64,000 bases of DNA, taken from contig CAMVEM010000001.1 in the NCBI GenBank assembly GCA_947166515.1, positions 1 to 64,000 of the forward strand, in the 5' to 3' direction. The notes under the pieces are model-generated. The model was given only the letters and a program-made list of their open reading frames with translations, had not been told where the DNA came from and did not search any database. The DNA is from an uncultured Clostridia bacterium. Lineage in GTDB: Bacteria; Bacillota; Clostridia; Oscillospirales; Ruminococcaceae. Below, one piece after another: positions 1 to 8,325 of this stretch. Each line of letters opens with the position of its first letter. Within the stretch, counting starts at the first letter, position 1. Position numbers and translations under genes: made by a program.

Positions 1-486
1 ATCTGTGGGAACTCCGCATTCCGCGCACACTGCCGCGATAAGTTCGGGCGGCGTGACAGAAAGCGCTCTGACGGAAGCGGAGGGCTCCCTGTCGAATTTT
101 ACGCCTGCATCGAACCCGACTATCGAGACGATGTCCTTTCTTCTTGTGGAAAGTACCGGGTCGATGTAAAACCTGCCGAGCGGAACATCCTCAAATGTAT
201 CCTCCCCAGTGACTATGCCGTATGTGAGATCGGCGTATGCCCCGGCAAGATCAATCCCGAGCGCATCCGCAAGAAAAAAGCTGAATCTGAGCTTTGACAG
301 GCAGAAGGTACCGATACGGTATCTTCCGCTGCAAATCTCCTTTGTCAGCTTAAGAGTGTCCTTAACGAGGACGGTGTCATTTATCGCTATTTCCGTGCCG
401 CCGGAAAGCACGATCTTCCCGGTTATCCTGTCGGTACGCTTTCTGCTGCGTACCGCACTGAGATAGCTTTCAGTCACGCTGTACAT
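1..486 (-). CDS. Phage tail hub/baseplate-like protein (partial, runs off left edge)
   Basis: The open frame starts at an ATG preceded by GGGGGCGG and is still open at base 1, so only about 162 N-terminal residues are seen. It is not in the ORF track because it lacks a stop. The segment around 'VPLGRFYIDPV' followed by 'KDIVSIVGFDAGVKFDRE' resembles the N-terminal part of tail hub or minor structural proteins of Firmicutes siphoviruses, which often read 'PLGxFxV...xITAYDxxxKFDK'. It is last in the visible tail module, where hub/Tal genes normally sit. The family call is from memory of such proteins; the role in attaching a receptor-binding tip is inferred. Confidence 0.6.
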   Translation of the reverse strand, partial: MYSVTESYLSAVRSRKRTDRITGKIVLSGGTEIAINDTVLVKDTLKLTKEICSGRYRIGTFCLSKLRFSFFLADALGIDLAGAYADLTYGIVTGEDTFEDVPLGRFYIDPVLSTRRKDIVSIVGFDAGVKFDREPSASVRALSVTPPELIAAVCAECGVPTD

Positions 487-498
487 ACCGCCGCCCCC

Positions 499-864
499 TT
501 AATATTCAACGAGGCGGCAGCTTATCTCCCACCAGCTTGCCATCTCGCTTCCGTTCTGCTGCTGATAAAAATCCGCGCTTATACTCTCCGCGTACATATC
601 GCATTCGGTATATCCCGCCGAAGCCGGATCAAGCATACTTACGGAGAGAACCTCTCCGCCGAGCGCAGTATCCAGCGCTCCGAGCTGAGTCCCTGCGATC
701 TTCCATTTCACATTGCAGGTCTTCACGCCGCGCCTTATCCTGTTGCGGTGAACTACGCCTGTCTCATCATATCTGCCGCTGTCTGAGCTCATGATGTCCT
801 TTGATGTGACGGAATAGTAAGTCGGCGTCGGTAGCACAGTATTGTTTATTTTTATAAAATACAT
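499..864 (-). CDS. Small phage tail-module protein (DUF6711-like)
   Basis: 121 residues with a GGGAGAAAATT-ATG start. It has no signal peptide or membrane segment, and it contains a 'SSDSGRYDETG' loop and 'RGVKTCNVKWKI' strands. It lies between the tape-measure candidate and the hub gene, the position of distal-tail or DUF6711-type small proteins in lactococcal and clostridial siphophages. It may be a distal tail (Dit) analogue or an adaptor. Specific function unknown; that it belongs to the tail module rests on position. Confidence 0.5.
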   Translation of the reverse strand: MYFIKINNTVLPTPTYYSVTSKDIMSSDSGRYDETGVVHRNRIRRGVKTCNVKWKIAGTQLGALDTALGGEVLSVSMLDPASAGYTECDMYAESISADFYQQQNGSEMASWWEISCRLVEY

Positions 865-894
865 AATTTTCTCCCATATCCGGAATTCCGGACA

Positions 895-1410
895 TTATCT
901 GTCGAGTCCGTTCGTAATACGGTCTCTGCTCATAAAATACCGGTTCACCGATTCTCCGATCCTGTCGCCGTCGAGCTCGACCGATGTTGTGATCTCTATG
1001 GGGCGTCCGCTGTCCCGCAGGCTGCCGCTGACAGCTCCGACAACGGTATCCTCCGGGTCGAGCGAGAGCACGTTCGCAGTGCGCAGATTGGCGTTTTTGA
1101 AATTCTGCACTTCGGTGACCGACTGCACGGCATTTTTCGCAGCAGACTCTGACGACGTATTTTTCTGAGCGTTTCGCCTAATGAAGGACGGAAACTGCGG
1201 AATTGTCACCGATCCGCTATCATTTTTTGTATTGCCTCCGGACACCTCAGTTTCAACGTCAATGAGTCCTTTGAACGCCGATCTCACTTCGTTGCCGGCA
1301 GTCCTTGCGTATGTGCGGAGCTGTCCGAGCACCTTTATCGCGTTGGTCATACCGTTCACGAAATTATCCGAGTCTGCGGTTATCTTTATACTTAGTTCAT
1401 CTACTGTCAT
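895..1410 (-). CDS. Miniature tape-measure-like tail protein
   Basis: 171 residues, start supported by AAAGGAGAACAACC-ATG. The N-terminus 'VDELSIKITADSDNFVNGM' is of the type that opens many tape-measure proteins. The C-terminus 'PIEITTSVELDGDRIGESV' is like the end of the same family. The long central coiled coil is missing: usual lengths are above 600 residues. It follows the tail chaperone pair, exactly where the tape measure is expected, and overlaps the end of the frameshift product by 14 bases. No stop or frameshift interrupts it. Either an internal deletion joined the two ends, or it is a short tail-initiation protein. Confidence 0.5.
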   Translation of the reverse strand: MTVDELSIKITADSDNFVNGMTNAIKVLGQLRTYARTAGNEVRSAFKGLIDVETEVSGGNTKNDSGSVTIPQFPSFIRRNAQKNTSSESAAKNAVQSVTEVQNFKNANLRTANVLSLDPEDTVVGAVSGSLRDSGRPIEITTSVELDGDRIGESVNRYFMSRDRITNGLDR

Positions 1411-2094
1411 GGTTGTTCTCCTTTTTCCGGGGATCCGCCGTATATCCGTTCCTATCAGCCAGCCGCTTATTTATCTGACCGGCTATGTGCATCATATCAG
1501 CTTTTCCGCCGTCCGCCGGAACGCTGCGCCTTCCGAACGCAGCGTCCGGAGTCTGCGGGAATCTCTGCGGTGCGTTGAACGCAGCCAGAACGAGCGCGCC
1601 GATATTGAACGAAAGAAGCTCATACCCACGCGCCGCGTCCGCAGCCCGCCGCTTTCCCGCTTCGATCATCTCGCCGAGCTCGTATGCCGTAAGCTCCCAC
1701 ATACCGCGTATATCTCCCCCGTAAACAAGCGCTTCTCCGCGAAGCTTTTTTATCAGTTCCCGCGCTCCGGAGAAGCCTGACCGAAAAAACCGGAATTTTC
1801 AAGCGCCCCGGCAATTATCTTATTCAGCGAAGCTATCGTTCCACCCTCGCTGATGTAGTCGTCAATAAGGCTGTATGCGTCCTGCTTTGTGAATTCCGGC
1901 TTTAAGCTCTCGATCAGCGAGTACAGAAATTCCGAGACGATCTTTATCTCGTCGGATCTCTCTGCCGCCTTATATACCGACATTCCGAGGCGCTCCTCGA
2001 GTCTTGCCGCAGAAAGCGCCGAAAGTCTGAGCAGAAATATCTTTCCGCCCACGTTGAGCTCGGTATATGGAAGTCTTACTTTGCTGTCGTCCAT
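1397..2094 (-). CDS. Tail assembly chaperone, frameshifted long form (gpGT type)
   Basis: The second frame (1397-1702 in the ORF track, from an internal ATG) has no ribosome site of its own and is open upstream into the 3' end of the short chaperone gene. A perfect T-TTT-TTC heptamer lies in the zero frame at 1783-1789. A -1 slip there gives '...GF-F-RSGFSGARELIKK...' and continues through 'MWELTAYELGEMIEAGK' to the stop at 1397, about 232 residues in all. This arrangement between tail tube and tape measure is conserved in long-tailed phages. The frameshift product is inferred from the heptamer, the overlap and the gene order. Confidence 0.7.
1753..2094 (-). CDS. Tail assembly chaperone, short form (gpG type)
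   Basis: 113 residues, start GGAGGAAAATAAA-ATG. Mostly helical and soluble, with 'LSALSAARLEERLG' and 'YSLIDDYISEGGTIASLNKII', like short tail chaperones that coat the tape measure during assembly. It sits immediately after the tail tube gene (13-base gap) and carries the slippery heptamer near its 3' end. Most ribosomes would end at the TGA at 1753-1755; a minority would shift to make the long form. Confidence 0.7.
   Translation of the reverse strand: MDDSKVRLPYTELNVGGKIFLLRLSALSAARLEERLGMSVYKAAERSDEIKIVSEFLYSLIESLKPEFTKQDAYSLIDDYISEGGTIASLNKIIAGALENSGFFGQASPERGN
1783..1789 (-). promoter_or_regulatory. Slippery heptamer for -1 ribosomal frameshift
   Basis: Read on the minus strand the bases are T TTT TTC with the zero-frame codons TTT and TTC, which fits the X XXY YYZ rule. 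The slip leads into an open frame, whereas the zero frame ends 27 bases later at TGA-TAA. No clear pseudoknot was assessed. Confidence 0.7.
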
Positions 2095-2107
2095 TTTATT
2101 TTCCTCC

Positions 2108-2533
2108 TTAGCTGTCGGTGCTGTAAACGAGCGGAGTATTCGGTATCGACACTATGCTGAATTCCATTACACCGTCCGCATCCATTTTCTTTACTTTAGT
2201 GGCTACCTGACCGTTCCACGAGAAGTATGTCCCGTCGGGGAACACCACTCTCTGCGGCACCGAAGCGCCAGAGAGCTCGACAGCTCTCGCCGCTGCAAAT
2301 GCCGCCGCAGTCTGCCCTGCTGTGACATTCGGGTTCGTATCGCTGCTGTTATAATAAAAATCAAAGGTGAGATCATCGTACTTGTACAGTCCGGCAATAT
2401 ATCTGTGCGCCGTGTCAAGCAGATTTGTCACCTCTTTTTTCTCCCTTGTTCCGCCGAGCTCGGGAGTCGATCTGAGTCCGTAAAGGTTCTGCCCGTTGAG
2501 ATAATAGGCAGTTCCCGAAGAAAGCAGTTCCAT
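2108..2533 (-). CDS. Major tail tube protein
   Basis: 141 residues with a CAGGAGGAAAAACA-ATG start. It begins 'MELLSSGTAYYLNG', carries 'LTFDFYYNSSDTNPNV' and ends in a beta-rich stretch 'DGVMEFSIVSIPNTPLVY', as in the tail tube proteins of small siphoviruses from Gram-positive hosts. It lies directly before the tail chaperone pair, its invariant position. It should polymerise into the tail tube around the tape measure. The call rests on order, size and general likeness. Confidence 0.65.
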   Translation of the reverse strand: MELLSSGTAYYLNGQNLYGLRSTPELGGTREKKEVTNLLDTAHRYIAGLYKYDDLTFDFYYNSSDTNPNVTAGQTAAAFAAARAVELSGASVPQRVVFPDGTYFSWNGQVATKVKKMDADGVMEFSIVSIPNTPLVYSTDS

Positions 2534-2560
2534 TGTTTTTCCTCCTGTAATATTTTTCCG

Positions 2561-2625
2561 CCACCCCCAACCCCCTCCCCGTGGGGAGGGGGCTCTTTTT
2601 TTGTGGAGGGCTGCGCCCCACTCTG
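2561..2625 (+). repeat. C-rich hairpin repeat with T-run (family 1)
   Basis: CCCCCTCCCC and its complement GGGGAGGGGG form a strong hairpin followed on the plus strand by CTCTTTTTTT, then a second GTGGAGGGC/GCCCCAC hairpin. The T-run faces against the phage operon. The same two-hairpin unit recurs at about 16.3, 17.6, 35.5, 46.7, 53.1 and 61.7 kb, so it entered the phage genes from the host's repeat population. Confidence 0.7.
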
Positions 2626-2658
2626 CTTTTTACAGGGTGGGGTTACATTTAAACCCTA

Positions 2659-3015
2659 TCATATCGAGACGACTCTTCCGGTCTCCTCGTCTATGCCAAA
2701 ACGAAATCTCATACACACTCTCGGATATTTTTCATCCGTGATGAGCTGTGAAAAAGTCCGTCTCGCGCCTTTTTCCGTGAGTATCCGGCTCGCGGATACC
2801 GCGATATCACGCGCAGTCTGCGGGTCTTCGGCATAAACGTCTGCCTGTACGATTATGACGCTGTACCTGTCCTTTCCGCCAAGAACAACGGAGGCGGTAT
2901 TACCCGTCTCCGTTATCGTGATAAGCGGGAACGTCTCATTGCGCTCTGGGAACGCGAGCTCCGTTTCTGCCAGACCGCCGAGCAGCCACGCTATATCGGG
3001 TAAGATATCTTTCAT
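2659..3015 (-). CDS. Tail terminator / tail completion-like protein
   Basis: 118 residues, overlapping the preceding stop by four bases (translational coupling). The central beta-rich part 'YSVIIVQADVYAEDPQTARDIA' followed by a helix and 'RFRFGIDEETGRV' fits the tail completion fold found before the tail tube gene in siphoviruses. It would cap the growing tail and join it to the head. Recognised mainly by position, size and predicted pattern. Confidence 0.5.
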   Translation of the reverse strand: MKDILPDIAWLLGGLAETELAFPERNETFPLITITETGNTASVVLGGKDRYSVIIVQADVYAEDPQTARDIAVSASRILTEKGARRTFSQLITDEKYPRVCMRFRFGIDEETGRVVSI

Positions 3016-3323
3016 TTTCCGACACTTCCTCTCAGACAGGCGGACAGCACCAAAGGCGCCTGCGCCCTCGCATATTCGAGCGCATTGCCAAGAAAAGGCT
3101 TCGGACGCCTTCTGCTCCAGCCGAACTCGACTTTACCCGCATACGGCACGTTCGTCCATATCTTCGCCTTTTCGGTACCGGCAGCGCGGTCGGGGATCAT
3201 GGTAAGCGTGATGCTGCGCTTAAGCCTGCCCGTAACTACGGGACAGTGCTTCTTCGCGTGATCGTATGCCACCTTTCCGAGTTCCTTCACCACCGCGTTT
3301 ATCACTTCGTTATAATCTGTCAT
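3012..3323 (-). CDS. HK97 gp10-like head-tail protein
   Basis: I start this at the ATG at 3323, not the longer ORF at 3422, because CGGAGTTGTT precedes it and the longer start lies inside the neighbouring gene. The 103-residue product has 'HAKKHCPVVTGRLKRSI', the 'P..TG.L..S' signature of HK97 gp10-like proteins, and 'IWTNVPYAGKVEFG', also typical. It overlaps the gene before and after by four bases each, indicating coupled translation in the head-tail joining set. Confidence 0.75.
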   Translation of the reverse strand: MTDYNEVINAVVKELGKVAYDHAKKHCPVVTGRLKRSITLTMIPDRAAGTEKAKIWTNVPYAGKVEFGWSRRRPKPFLGNALEYARAQAPLVLSACLRGSVGK

Positions 3324-3613
3324 AACAACTCCGTTCTTGCCGATATGTGAGACGGATAGACCGCTACTTCGGTGACCCTGCTGTCGGGTGCATCCCCGAA
3401 TACACCCGCAAGGTCGCCGCACTTCACGCCCGCGTCACGGCGCAGTACGAGCACCGCGCCGGAATTCTCACGGCTCCCGCCGCGTTCGTCGGAAAGCGTG
3501 GTCTTATCCGGGAACACCTCCGCGTAAACGAATCCCACGGGTGAGGGCGTCACCTTTTTGCCGACATAGCCGCTGTCGGAAAGCGACGGCGAAAAGATAT
3601 TGACTTTCTTCAT
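3320..3613 (-). CDS. Head closure (stopper)-like protein
   Basis: The ATG at 3613, after GAGAGGTTC, is preferred over the longer ORF start at 3643, which would run into the upstream gene. The 97-residue product is beta-rich ('GFVYAEVFPDKTTL', 'GAVLVLRRDAGVKCGD') and sits between the connector and the gp10-like gene, the usual place of the head closure protein. Sequence alone does not prove the family. Confidence 0.5.
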   Translation of the reverse strand: MKKVNIFSPSLSDSGYVGKKVTPSPVGFVYAEVFPDKTTLSDERGGSRENSGAVLVLRRDAGVKCGDLAGVFGDAPDSRVTEVAVYPSHISARTELL

Positions 3614-3620
3614 GAACCTC

Positions 3621-3935
3621 TCAGTCAGCCGCATTGACAGCACCCGCCTTTCTCGGATAATTCTTGAGCCTTCGCTTCATATCGTCCGTAATGAGCGACG
3701 AGAACGACACCGAAATGCCGCCCTCGCCGCGCTTTGTCTCCCCCTCGTTACCGAGCCTGTTGAACATCATGACCGCAAGCTGAACTACCATATCGTTCAG
3801 CCTTTCCGGAAGCGTGTCCCTGCCGGTATAGTCGAGCAGCGTGTGCTCTGCCTGTTCAAGCAGTATCCCGAGCTTTATGTCTGATGTTTCATCATCCGGG
3901 GGAAGCATTATCCTCATAGCTTCGATGTTCGTCAT
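3621..3935 (-). CDS. Phage head-tail connector (gp6/adaptor-like)
   Basis: 104 residues, helical, with 'LLEQAEHTLLDYTGRDTLPERLNDMVVQLAVMM' (quoted in part) matching the general pattern of head-tail adaptor proteins that bind under the portal: a helix, a 'Y.gr...' turn, and a long helix containing 'V.qLAv...NR.g'. It follows the capsid gene by 13 bases. The ribosome site is weak (GGTGA), so coupling to the capsid message is likely. Its usual partner, the portal protein, is not in the window. Confidence 0.65.
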   Translation of the reverse strand: MTNIEAMRIMLPPDDETSDIKLGILLEQAEHTLLDYTGRDTLPERLNDMVVQLAVMMFNRLGNEGETKRGEGGISVSFSSLITDDMKRRLKNYPRKAGAVNAAD

Positions 3936-3948
3936 AGCGCGTCACCGA

Positions 3949-4800
3949 TCAGCCGTTGTTTTCCTCGGGCTCCTCACCGTCAAAGCATACCGCGACCGCC
4001 TTCTTTTTCTGATCGAAAACAAAGATGTCATGATAGAGCAGGCCTTCAACAAGTGTTCCGGCGATTCCGGGAGGATCACGGTGTATCTTGTATTCCTGGA
4101 GCTTCACGGGTGCGGGAGCGCACATCGGGTGAGTTATGATGAACGCGGTATCCTCAGGAAGTCTGCGCTTCGGAACAGCTATGATCGCCACGCCGTCACA
4201 GTCGCCTACCATGCCCTTGAATATCACTCTGTCCTGAGCGAGAGCAGTAGCCTTTGTAAATCCGCTGTCCTGCTTGAGCAGACGGATAAAGTCGTTCGAG
4301 CAGAACGCCACACGTCCCTCAACGGGAAATTCCTCGTCGGTGATCGCGGTGTTTGCTTCGACGAAGGTCTCATAAGCGTTCTCAGATGTGAGCTCGCGGT
4401 AGATCTTAGTGCCTGCCTTATCCGCAAGAACAGAGAAACGGTAGGTGTCTATTGCGGGGATTATCACCTGATCTATCTGTCTCTGGAGTGCCTTTCCGGC
4501 ATTTCTCACGCCCTCGGGCGAATCGGACTCGTATGTCTTGTCAATGGTGAAGGTGAACGCCTTCTGCTGTGTCATCTTCATCTCCTGAACAGTGTCCTCA
4601 AGCTCTGTGGGTGTGCCGTATCTGCTCATTCCCGCGGTGGGATCATAGTCGCCGAGCGGCGCGGTATCGAGCGAATATACCTTTACGGTACTCGCATTGC
4701 CGAACTCAACGTCATTGTTTGTGCCTGCTGTGGAAAGAAGTCCTCTTCTGATGACCTCGTCCACCTGTGTAGAATATTTTGTTGCAAGATTTACTGCCAT
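3949..4800 (-). CDS. Phage major capsid protein
   Basis: 283 residues, start AAAGGAGAAAAAACT-ATG. It opens 'MAVNLATKYSTQVDEVI', has an N-arm of 'TYESDSPEGVRNAGKAL' type and a central 'RVAFCSNDFIRLLKQDSGF' region, and ends in an acidic tail. This is the pattern of HK97-fold coat proteins found in Clostridia prophages downstream of a DUF4355 scaffold. The scaffold gene just before it supports the call. The frame is intact. Confidence 0.75.
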   Translation of the reverse strand: MAVNLATKYSTQVDEVIRRGLLSTAGTNNDVEFGNASTVKVYSLDTAPLGDYDPTAGMSRYGTPTELEDTVQEMKMTQQKAFTFTIDKTYESDSPEGVRNAGKALQRQIDQVIIPAIDTYRFSVLADKAGTKIYRELTSENAYETFVEANTAITDEEFPVEGRVAFCSNDFIRLLKQDSGFTKATALAQDRVIFKGMVGDCDGVAIIAVPKRRLPEDTAFIITHPMCAPAPVKLQEYKIHRDPPGIAGTLVEGLLYHDIFVFDQKKKAVAVCFDGEEPEENNG

Positions 4801-5144
4801 AGTTTTTTCTCCTTTGTTTCATTGTTTTTAGAACGAGACGCTTTAACACACCCTGTCAGAGGGGTTACGTTCCGCCTCTTCAAAGCGCCAACGGCGCTTT
4901 GATATTTTTTTGTGGGGCTGCGCCACACACCCCGCTGAACAACGTGAAAATAGGGGCTTTGCCCCTATAACCCTACCAGAGGGGCTGGCGCCACCCCTCT
5001 GGACTTCCGGCGCCAGCGTGGTCTGTCGGTCAGCCCTCTCTGTGGCTTTTGCTTTGCAAAAGCTCCACCTCGCCCGCTGCCGGGGAGATTACGCCGGACC
5101 CACTCGCGCTTCGCGCATTTTCTGCCAGATTGCGCTGCTGAATA
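4801..5144. repeat. Hairpin-rich intergenic stretch between scaffold and capsid genes
   Basis: No coding frame is convincing here. The stretch holds several GC-rich inverted pieces: GGGGCTTTGCCCC, a 'TTTTTTTGTGGGGCTGCGCC' unit like repeat family 1, and CTTTTGCTTTGCAAAAG. A capsid operon seldom has 340 untranslated bases here, so this looks like inserted host repeat DNA. It should still be transcribed with the phage genes. Confidence 0.6.
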
Positions 5145-5648
5145 TTAAGCGCCGTAAACTCCCAGCCCGTCCAGGAATGCGTCCTTCGCGCCGCCCGGAG
5201 CGAACTTCGGCGGGATACCTCTCATACGCTGATTTACCGCCGCTGTGAGCGATTCCTCAAATGCCCTGCCGACAATCTCCAGACTTCTGTCGCATTCATC
5301 TCTGCCGGAATAATCGAGGCATGCTGAAAGCTCCTTCGGAAGTCCCGCAGCGCTGAGCTTCTCCGCCGCCTCTGCGGCAAGCTCTCTCTTCGCAACAGCA
5401 GCCTCGCGCTCCGCAAGTGAACGTTCAAGCGTCTCCCTGCGGTGATCGTCGCGTTCACGCTCACTCATGGAAGCAAGCTTTTCCGCTTCGGCAAGTTTTT
5501 TCGCAAACTCCTCACGCTCGGCGACGAGAGCCTTTTCAAATTCTTCCTTAGTGTAGAGCTTTTCTTCCGTCACTGTCTCCCCGGCATTTTCGGACACGGT
5601 CTCCGAGCCGATTATTTCCTCACCCTGCGCAATTTCATTTTCCTGCAT
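5145..5648 (-). CDS. Phage capsid scaffolding protein (DUF4355-like)
   Basis: The ATG at 5648 follows AGAAGGTGTGTTG and is preferred to the ORF-track start twelve codons earlier. The product is 167 residues, acidic at the N-terminus, with a long charged coiled coil ('EEFEKALVAEREEFAKKLAE') and 'SMSERERDD' near the middle, the signature pattern of DUF4355 scaffolds ('ms..ek...'). The C-terminal 'PPKFAPGGAKDAFLDGLG' is a typical capsid-binding tail. It is the first phage gene on the minus strand; nothing phage-like lies upstream. Confidence 0.75.
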   Translation of the reverse strand: MQENEIAQGEEIIGSETVSENAGETVTEEKLYTKEEFEKALVAEREEFAKKLAEAEKLASMSERERDDHRRETLERSLAEREAAVAKRELAAEAAEKLSAAGLPKELSACLDYSGRDECDRSLEIVGRAFEESLTAAVNQRMRGIPPKFAPGGAKDAFLDGLGVYGA

Positions 5649-5954
5649 CAACACACCTTCTTTCTTTTGCAGACTGCAAAACAAAAGCGCCGTACATCCT
5701 GTGACATACAGCGCATATAAAAAGGTCAGCCGGAATTACTTTTCCGCATCTGACCTCAGTTTATATATTATCACGTTTTTTACGGACATACAAGGACATG
5801 TTTTTCCTGACGTATCCTGACCGCCCGGTTGAAAATGTAGAAACCGGTTGAAAGAAATGTTGAAAGCGTTGAAAACTCCTTTTCTCCGTCCGATCCGCCG
5901 GAACACAGTTGGTAAAAGTGCTGAAAACAGATGCTCCATACTTGCACAAATGAT

Positions 5955-6120: not shown

Positions 6121-8325
6121 ATGGCTGATTATTGTCTTTACTGCATGTCAAAGCTCGAAGATAACGGATTCTGTCCGGTCGGAGGAGCAACACACAGCAG
6201 ATTCCCAAGCGAACCGCATCATATAAATCCCGGAACTGTCCTCGCCGACAGATATCTGACCGGACGCGTGCTCGGAGAAGGCGGCTTCAGCATAACTTAT
6301 ATCGCACTCGACCTGAAAACCGAAGTCAAATATGCGCTCAAGGAATATTATCCGAGAAATGTCGCAGCAAGAATTACCGGCTCAAACGTGATCTCCTTTT
6401 CCGGAAGCCGCGAGAACGCTGTGACATTTGAAAAGGGAAAACAAGCATTCCTCATCTCATCAAAGAACCTTGAAAACATATCTCTTCCCGGAAACATAAC
6501 CGCAGTCCGCGGACACTTTGAAGCGAACAACACCGCATACGCATTATCGGAATTTGCTCCCGGCGAATCTCTCGCTCAGGCGGTCGAAGCACGCGGCAAA
6601 CTTAAGCCCGAAGACGTTTTAAGAATGACAGGTCCGCTTTTCGACTCGATCGACGTAATGCACAGCGCCGGCGTGATACACCATGATATATCCCCCGAAA
6701 ATATTATAATAGAGAACGGCAAAGCAAGACTTGCCGACATCGGTATTGCAAGAGACCAGAAATATAACGGAAGCGACCCGGCTTCCGAAGCAAAGCATTA
6801 CTGCGCTTCACCGGAGCATTACAGCCCGACGCCGCAGACCGTAAAATCAGATATATACTCGCTTGCCGCAACCATATATTTCGCGCTGACCGGATACAAG
6901 CCCGAAAGAGCTCCGAAGCGCCTCGAAGCCGAGTGCCTCACACCGCCGACAAGATTCGGCGCAAGGATCTCCCCTCAGCAGGAAGAGGTCATTTTACAGG
7001 CAATGTCGCTCGCTCCCGAGAACAGATACGGATCGGCAGCGGAATTCCGCTCTGATTTTCTTGCAGCAGCCGCAAAACCGGCTCCCGTTCCGGTACGTCC
7101 TCCGGTACAGGCTGCACCCGTGCGTCCTGCCGATAACGGAAATAAAAAGAAGAAATTCATATTCATCGGAGCCGCAGCGGCGGTCGTAGTTATACTGATA
7201 ACAGTCCTTATAGCTACTTCCGGCGGCGGAAACAAGATAGAAACCGATCCCGGCAAACAGAGCACCAACACCTCCGCGTCTGCGGCCATTTCCGAGACCA
7301 CTTCTCCGGACAGTTCTTCGTCTTCATCGCAGCAGACGACGGTCACCAGTTTAGAGGATACGACCCGTCCGCCTGAACCCGATAACACCACTGTAAACCA
7401 TTCCGCTACTGACGGAAGCGAGACGGAAGAAACGGAGCCTGAAGAAACTTCCGAGACCGAACCCGCAGTTCCCGTTACCGCAGCAACCACCAAAAAGCCC
7501 TCCAACACCGGTAGCTCTGATTTCACCATACAGAACGGAGTGCTTGTAAGCTATCACGGAAGCGGCGGAGACCTGCTCATTCCGTCAACTATAACGTCTA
7601 TAGGCAACAATGCCTTCAAGAACTATAAATCGCTCTACTCGGTAACTATACCTTCAAGCGTCAAATCCATAGGATCATACGCATTCAGCAACTGTACAAA
7701 CCTTAAGACTATAATGATGAGCGACGGCATCACATCTATCGGCGAATACGCTTTCAGCAATTGTTCGTCGCTCAAAAAGATCACTATCCCTGCAAATGTA
7801 TCGAATATTGAAGCAACGATATTCTCAGGATGCACCGGAATGACCGAGATCAATGTCCAGAAAGGCAACAAATCATACACCTCGGTTGACGGTGTTCTGT
7901 TCAATGCAAACAAGACAGTGATCATATCTTATCCGAGAAATAAGGCCGGCAATTTCTACGACATTCCTTCCACCGTTACGAGGATCGAAGCAAACGCTTT
8001 CACAAGCTGCAAGAATCTTAAGGGAATCACTTTATCATCCGGCCTTAAGACGATCGGCGACTATGCGTTCTATAACTGCACATCCCTGACAACCATGAGA
8101 ATAGAAGGCAAGATAGTTTCTATAGGAAAATATTCTTTCTACAAGTGCTCAAATATATCAAATATCGTAATAGGCACAAATGTAACATCTATCGGCACCG
8201 GCGCTTTCAAGGACTGCGACAAGCTTACGCGTCTCAACTACAAAGGCACTCCGTCGGCATGGAAGAAAGTCAAGGTCGGCGATCTTGGAAAGACTCTCAA
8301 TATCATTTACAACTACGCACTGTAA
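6121..8325 (+). CDS. Membrane Ser/Thr protein kinase with BspA-like LRR ectodomain
   Basis: 734 residues, start CGGAGGAAAAA-ATG. Residues 5-18 hold CxxC and a further Cys, a degenerate zinc ribbon. A Hanks-type kinase follows: glycine loop 'LGEGGFSITY' at 51-60, Lys74 in 'ALKEYYP', catalytic loop 'HHDISPENIII' near 188 (HHD in place of HRD), 'ADIGIA' (DIG for DFG) and 'SPEHY'. Near 343-368 a basic stretch 'NKKKKF' leads into one membrane helix. A Ser/Thr/Glu-rich linker then carries at least six LRR_5 repeats ('ITSIGxxAFxxCxxLxxI'). The repeats should lie outside the cell and could sense a ligand, while the kinase works inside. The orphan histidine kinase follows by 42 bases. Confidence 0.85.
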   Translation: MADYCLYCMSKLEDNGFCPVGGATHSRFPSEPHHINPGTVLADRYLTGRVLGEGGFSITYIALDLKTEVKYALKEYYPRNVAARITGSNVISFSGSRENAVTFEKGKQAFLISSKNLENISLPGNITAVRGHFEANNTAYALSEFAPGESLAQAVEARGKLKPEDVLRMTGPLFDSIDVMHSAGVIHHDISPENIIIENGKARLADIGIARDQKYNGSDPASEAKHYCASPEHYSPTPQTVKSDIYSLAATIYFALTGYKPERAPKRLEAECLTPPTRFGARISPQQEEVILQAMSLAPENRYGSAAEFRSDFLAAAAKPAPVPVRPPVQAAPVRPADNGNKKKKFIFIGAAAAVVVILITVLIATSGGGNKIETDPGKQSTNTSASAAISETTSPDSSSSSSQQTTVTSLEDTTRPPEPDNTTVNHSATDGSETEETEPEETSETEPAVPVTAATTKKPSNTGSSDFTIQNGVLVSYHGSGGDLLIPSTITSIGNNAFKNYKSLYSVTIPSSVKSIGSYAFSNCTNLKTIMMSDGITSIGEYAFSNCSSLKKITIPANVSNIEATIFSGCTGMTEINVQKGNKSYTSVDGVLFNANKTVIISYPRNKAGNFYDIPSTVTRIEANAFTSCKNLKGITLSSGLKTIGDYAFYNCTSLTTMRIEGKIVSIGKYSFYKCSNISNIVIGTNVTSIGTGAFKDCDKLTRLNYKGTPSAWKKVKVGDLGKTLNIIYNYAL

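Follow-up and report, generated by a model that had tools for sequence, protein, structure and literature searches.

A centre-less tape measure in mostly ruminant-gut Clostridia belongs to a dispersed, vertically inherited phage-derived system, probably a gene transfer agent

Introduction

The length of a phage tail amounts to about 0.15 nm per residue of its tape-measure protein. At the edge of a 64,000-nucleotide stretch of DNA from an uncultured bacterium of the Ruminococcaceae (the window), a preliminary description had pointed out a tape-measure candidate of 171 residues that seemed to consist of two tape-measure ends in a clean reading frame, with the centre missing. Two readings were offered: a functional particle with a miniature tail, or a decaying prophage in which the gene had undergone an in-frame deletion. 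Is the protein a tape measure at all, and if so, what kind of element would keep it?

Results

The gene lies in a cassette that spans positions 1-5800 of the window, position 1 coinciding with the end of an assembly contig, and that continues on C67, another contig of this draft genome (Table 1). From position 5684 downwards, the genes run in the order scaffold, capsid, connector, head closure, neck, terminator, tube, chaperone, small gene, tape measure, distal tail and tip. Host-type genes border the cassette on both ends. It holds no terminase, portal, integrase, replication or lysogeny genes, and a search of the cassette with Pfam and PHROGs found no recognisable contractile-tail genes.

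Table 1. Features of the two loci in the genome of the window
Feature	Location	Strand	Basis or remark
Tail-tip/fibre protein, N-terminal 162 aa	1..486	-	phrog_6616; gene cut by contig end
Distal-tail-like protein (DUF6711)	499..864	-	PF20458; phrog_1194 E=2e-18
Mini tape-measure protein, 171 aa	895..1410	-	phrog_2854 weak; end-specific HMMs; profile comparison; family 121-201 aa
Small conserved protein between chaperone and tape measure	1397..1702	-	phrog_2066 E=7e-5
Tail assembly chaperone	1753..2094	-	phrog_183 E=3e-10; DUF6096 below cut-off
Major tail (tube) protein	2108..2533	-	phrog_158 E=2e-10
Tail terminator	2659..3015	-	phrog_78 E=2e-8
HK97 gp10-like neck or tail-completion protein	3012..3422	-	PF04883; phrog_5 E=9e-16
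Probable head closure protein	3320..3643	-	position and conservation; no clear family match
Head-tail connector, gp6-like	3621..3935	-	PF05135 E=5e-12
Major capsid protein	3949..4800	-	phrog_422 E=1e-55
Scaffold-like protein	5145..5684	-	ATG start probably 5648; directly before capsid gene in all related loci
Promoter of locus 1	5765..5798	-	TGTCCTTGTATGTC at 5785-5798; fixed spacing; extended -10 TGATAATAT at about 5765-5773
Tail-tip/fibre remainder	contig C67, L009:2-1756		Peptidase_G2 domain
NlpC/P60-like lysin	contig C67, L009:5435-6193		after holin-like and small genes
TerL-portal pair (locus 2)	C27:15758-18516		

The reading frame at 895-1410 (minus strand) starts with ATG, runs for 171 codons without an internal stop and is placed between a tail assembly chaperone gene and a distal-tail gene, as tape-measure genes are. 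A Pfam scan of the protein gave no match, and the PHROGs match, to the N-terminus of phrog_2854, was weak (residues 5-107 on profile positions 8-102 of 855, E=0.0011). We then built HMMs specific to each end, from the first 48 and the last 42 residues of 19 aligned mini-proteins, and searched related loci (3,186 ORFs) with them. The N-terminal HMM matched only residues 2-47 of a 718-residue tape measure (E 9e-7) and residues 1-44 of an 858-residue one (E 3e-6), while the C-terminal HMM matched residues 688-717 of the 718-residue protein (E 7e-6), the next match having an E of 0.13. Both full-length genes are syntenic with the short one, being flanked by tail chaperone and distal-tail genes. 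Comparison of mini and full-length tape measures with hhalign supported the N-terminus (E 5e-5, probability 66%), and when one mini-protein was aligned to one full-length protein by BLASTP, the two best segments were exactly the two ends. In a genome of the same genus that lacks the cassette (G359), both ends match the mini-profile about 2 kb apart in a single 871-residue ORF (E 6e-9 and 1e-4). Judged by these alignments, the 171-residue protein is a tape measure whose central part is absent. The proposed two ends without a centre are thus borne out by HMM searches on either side, for about the first 47 and the last 30 residues (E about 1e-6 and 1e-5), and the gene showed no homology to another tail protein family.

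As a query, the tape-measure protein had no match in IMG/VR, because it evolves fast, and among 299 family genomes it found just the window itself and one weak match. The capsid was used instead, against IMG/VR and 84,980 genomes. This search recovered the cassette from two metagenomic contigs and from about twenty genomes, labelled Ruminiclostridium sp., uncultured Ruminococcus and similar and mostly obtained from ruminant guts; below these, similarity fell off sharply to ordinary phages. Within the genus of the window, sampled with one genome for each of 71 species, 21 species carry the cassette as a single copy with capsid identities of 77-90%; each carrier examined is a draft genome, and most are MAGs. 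Of the 21, 17 have the tape-measure gene assembled, and in 17/17 it is short and its frame open (121-201 residues, the two metagenomic contigs included). The reading frame is therefore not a product of chance, and the claim that it is clean holds well beyond the window. No cassette assembled in one piece contained a full-length tape measure. When 398 family genomes were searched with the mini-profile, only the window was found, plus (at E<=0.001) portions of long ORFs of 710-1082 aa; this sample thus contains no second lineage of mini tape measures. Under the rule given above, 121-201 residues predict a tail of 18-30 nm. For the mini tape measure, AlphaFold predicts a helix at 3-45, a disordered middle and a second helix at 148-167, with low confidence (pLDDT 56, pTM 0.22), and although the outline of this model recalls the tape measure of the gene transfer agent RcGTA, at that confidence the likeness proves nothing.

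Long versions of the gene, which the preliminary description had suggested looking for, exist in the same genus. Four genomes hold an additional capsid relative, 65-69% identical, that belongs to full-length phages, and the tape measures of these phages comprise 821-858 aa where whole. Gene order is shared with the cassette. In contrast to it, the phages (L029, L030, L309, L310) combine a linked TerS with HTH, TerL, portal and MuF with the long tape measure, and in those read TerL, portal and MuF lie upstream. Capsid length differs among the carriers: basal ones (L140, L141, L142, L143, L004) keep the C-terminal extension of the full-length phage (354-366 aa), whereas most others have about 282-311 aa, which reads as stepwise trimming. 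C-terminal fragments of MuF, beginning at the HPFCRC motif and bearing variable extensions, were also encountered, one of which (L017:8186-8938) lies immediately before a cassette; they have the appearance of remnants or of polymorphic MuF domains. MuF as a universal cargo was considered and rejected, most carriers having no match or fragments only.

The neighbours of the cassette (locus 1) vary between species and stay constant within subclades. In the window, a serine/threonine kinase fused to leucine-rich-repeat-like sequence (6121-8325) adjoins it; other species have another neighbour at this place. No integrase was found near locus 1 in 7 of the 9 genomes checked. Of the remaining two, one has an intact tyrosine integrase beside a tRNA gene (G328:C163:10873-11427), with the locus 1 promoter about 0.4 kb downstream, and the other a fragment of 61 integrase residues at a similar place (G344).

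Loss of portal and terminase was considered and rejected, as both are present at a second locus. Using the portal and TerL of a full-length phage with 65-69% capsid identity as queries, we found a separate TerL in 21/21 cassette genomes (55-61% identical to that of the phage; one cut by a contig end, one split) and a portal in 20/21 (49-53% identical), the exception stopping at a contig edge. The split TerL consists of two overlapping ORFs (L161, G350:C83:346-1546), probably a sequencing or assembly error. Among 50 non-carriers, one has a comparable TerL-portal pair; it comes with a full-length TerS and is an ordinary prophage. The association between cassette and TerL-portal pair is strong (Fisher p=4e-17). 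The proteins of locus 2 are a Terminase_3 with nuclease domain and an SPP1_portal. On long contigs the two loci are unlinked, lying on C1 (619 kb) and C7 (212 kb) in G355 and on C8 (207 kb) and C3 (97 kb) in G299. The left side of locus 2 is formed by the same host genes (ClpC-like, FabG-like, MurD-like and others) in at least nine other species, so this locus is fixed in the chromosome. The setting of the tape-measure gene is not one of decay, with terminase and portal intact elsewhere, and the word prophage does not fit it in its ordinary sense: the gene sits in one locus of a dispersed system.

TerL is preceded by an ORF of 66-75 residues in every carrier in which the region is assembled. 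This carrier TerS aligns only to the C-terminal parts of three phage or prophage TerS of the genus, the N-terminal region being gone. In the one phage or prophage TerS scanned, the Terminase_2 match falls in the N-terminal region, whereas the two carrier TerS scanned gave no match. On these comparisons, the carrier TerS has lost its N-terminal DNA-binding region, as has that of RcGTA, whose authors propose the lack of this domain as a mark of GTA-type terminases (PMC6854486). FpGTA, the gene transfer agent of Faecalibacterium prausnitzii, is likewise described with a TerS that has no obvious DNA-binding domain (PMC12946183).

Both loci share a promoter motif. In 22 of 23 cassettes, the scaffold gene is preceded by TGTCMTTGWWTGTC, or by a version that differs in one letter, with an extended -10 at fixed spacing. 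The motif is made up of direct ATGTCC repeats with a 10-bp period, in three copies in some cases, and at locus 2 the same element stands before TerS in every case in which this stretch is assembled. Genome-wide, 90 sites were counted in the 21 carriers (4.3 per genome) versus 12 in the 50 non-carriers (0.24); the reversed pattern gave 6 sites in all 71 genomes. Several sites within or antisense to host genes, which have no -10, were excluded as regulon members. The motif is likewise found before packaging genes in other prophages of the genus (HNH-terminase-portal or TerS genes in L304, L303 and L163), so it is not specific to the carrier system and is probably descended from a phage late promoter.

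Further genes stand behind copies of the motif. DUF6291 genes follow good copies in many carriers, and DUF6291 is present in 14/21 carriers versus 4/50 other genomes. Its start lies about 67 bp past the motif copy (L255, L256, L270, L279, L280, L282, L289, L291), in several carriers twice per genome. In G345, a VapE-like gene stands behind a good copy. Such phage-replication-type genes behind the motif are unexpected for a classical gene transfer agent. One basal carrier, G325 (L264, L265), has a fibre locus and a locus with a holin and a glycosyl-hydrolase-like lysin, each with its own motif copy, which suggests further splitting of the system.

Finally, we asked how the two loci are inherited. 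In an rpoB tree of 59 genomes, 13/13 carriers with rpoB group in a single clade (support 100/96) that includes no non-carrier; the eight carriers without a usable rpoB fragment were left out. For capsid, TerL, portal, tube and tape measure, amino-acid distances correlate with those of rpoB (Mantel r 0.81-0.89, p<=0.002) and also track each other. Median dN/dS was 0.08 for the capsid, 0.08 for the tail tube, 0.11 for TerL, 0.12 for the portal and 0.40 for the tape measure; these are rough figures, taken from pairs with dS<1.5, many of which are near saturation. As read from the tree, the distances and dN/dS, both loci are vertically inherited and under purifying selection, with one gain and zero losses among the 13 species on the tree.

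Discussion

Several findings expected of a gene transfer agent (GTA) come together in these genomes. The structural and packaging genes of a tailed phage are intact, and they are dispersed, so that the element is unable to package itself as a unit. The small terminase is without the N-terminal DNA-binding domain that the TerS of phages of the same genus has, and the whole is inherited vertically under purifying selection in the host lineage. With the dispersed loci, the cut-down TerS, the intact packaging genes, a lysis gene, vertical inheritance and selection, a GTA fits better than other known kinds of element. Gene content, split loci, shared motif, shortened TerS and tape measure, mode of inheritance and selection can be read from the genomes themselves, and on this basis we put the probability at roughly three in four that the 171-residue protein belongs to a domesticated, vertically inherited phage-derived particle encoded at at least two loci, most likely a GTA. 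A search of the open-access literature found no report on this system or clade. With somewhat less confidence, we think it probable that it is an undescribed, independently domesticated siphovirus-type GTA, clade-wide in mostly ruminant-gut Clostridia, with genes at two, possibly more, loci that share one promoter motif derived from phage late promoters, and with a tape measure below that of RcGTA in length.

From the genes, by which the system is known here, we infer that particles form with a short tail, that they take up random host DNA, and that after lysis they carry it to other cells, along the following lines. A putative activator would read the one promoter motif at both loci. Locus 1 (window and C67) would make the capsid, the neck, a very short non-contractile tail, the tail tip and the lysin, and locus 2 (contig C27) would provide TerS, TerL and the SPP1-type portal. 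TerL, together with a TerS lacking the DNA-binding region, might cut host DNA and pump it through the portal without sequence preference, while the tail tube, its length dictated by the mini tape measure, would consist of a few discs and measure roughly 20-30 nm. Cells would then lyse, and the particles could bring DNA to relatives.

The main rival is a particle like PBSX of Bacillus subtilis, an element of myovirus type that occupies one locus and has a contractile tail. Such a particle would package host DNA or nothing, bind to related strains and kill them, and deliver no genes. Fibre and tail-tip genes are retained here, the fibre region shows signs of variability (Tal pn/ps 0.48), and conservation and vertical inheritance would be expected to be the same. 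We nevertheless regard this reading as unlikely: TerL and portal are strongly constrained, the truncation of TerS is a known feature of GTAs and no contractile-tail genes are recognisable in the cassette.

Far less probable is a phage satellite, for which the related full-length phage would serve as packaging helper. All four genomes with a full-length phage (L029, L030, L120-L123, L309, L310) also carry the mini cassette (4/4, chance p=0.006), a co-occurrence that could stem from superinfection, exchange or host range. It may merely mirror the host range of the phage, however, and carriers own a TerL and a portal, inherit the system vertically and, in seven of nine genomes checked, have no integrase near the cassette. 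A similarly small chance attaches to a protein-filled or empty nanoparticle that no longer serves to package DNA; the unlinking of capsid and packaging genes would suit it, as would the MuF C-terminal fragments that lie near or far from the cassette in some carriers, but an unused TerL and portal would not remain under purifying selection. As for the decaying prophage with an in-frame tape-measure deletion, which a cassette without terminase, portal, replication and lysogeny genes might bring to mind, it is refuted by clade-wide conservation, 17/17 species having the same form with open frames and a dN/dS of about 0.1 while the packaging genes are intact elsewhere and inherited in parallel. 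Of the two original readings, it is therefore the functional mini-tail particle that finds support; the decay reading fails on a gene that is clade-wide, selected and vertically inherited.

A GTA of this kind would carry an unusually clean evolutionary signature: a single gain, parallel unlinked loci, an RcGTA-like TerS cut and full-length phage relatives in the same genus. With such close phage relatives at hand, the transition from phage to GTA becomes directly testable. The mini tape measures also offer a natural series (121-201 residues versus 821-858 in the phage) for the question of minimal tail length, and if active, the system would be a route for gene flow between ruminant-gut bacteria. 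To our knowledge, very few GTAs are known outside Alphaproteobacteria. The first in gut Clostridia was described only in January 2026 (PMC12946183).

Among known systems, RcGTA has a tape measure of about 216 residues (113+83+20), five tube discs and a tail of 49 nm overall (PMC7296036). Set against these discs and this tail, it is reasonable that an estimate of about 25 nm for 171 residues would apply to the tube alone. RcGTA and the present system, the latter seen from genes alone, are alike as domesticated siphovirus-type particles with a short tape measure, a short tail and a TerS without DNA-binding domain. They differ in host, RcGTA being from Alphaproteobacteria, and, as RcGTA is described, in the SPP1-type portal and Terminase_3 TerL found here; the tape measure is shorter here (121-201 aa) and the packaging genes are unlinked from the capsid genes.

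The remaining comparisons draw on one report (Nat Commun, January 2026; PMC12946183). It cites PBSX as a conserved phage-like element of a Gram-positive host that packages host DNA, and it describes for Ruminococcus callidus, a gut Clostridium, the packaging of small and uniform 4.6 kb host fragments in particles, with no locus named in the sections consulted. FpGTA, as described there, is podovirus-like and encoded by two unlinked operons, one with terminase, portal, scaffold and capsid, the other with baseplate, fibre and lysis genes (PMC12946183). It shares with the present system a host among the gut Clostridia, two unlinked loci, a TerS of the kind discussed above and lysis genes in one operon, and it is the closest published system in layout. 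Unlike in FpGTA, capsid, neck, tail and lysis genes stand together here while TerS, TerL and portal stand apart, and neck and tail are of siphovirus type, a comparison made by layout only. By the descriptions given of both RcGTA and FpGTA, the system reported here is distinct from either in its layout.
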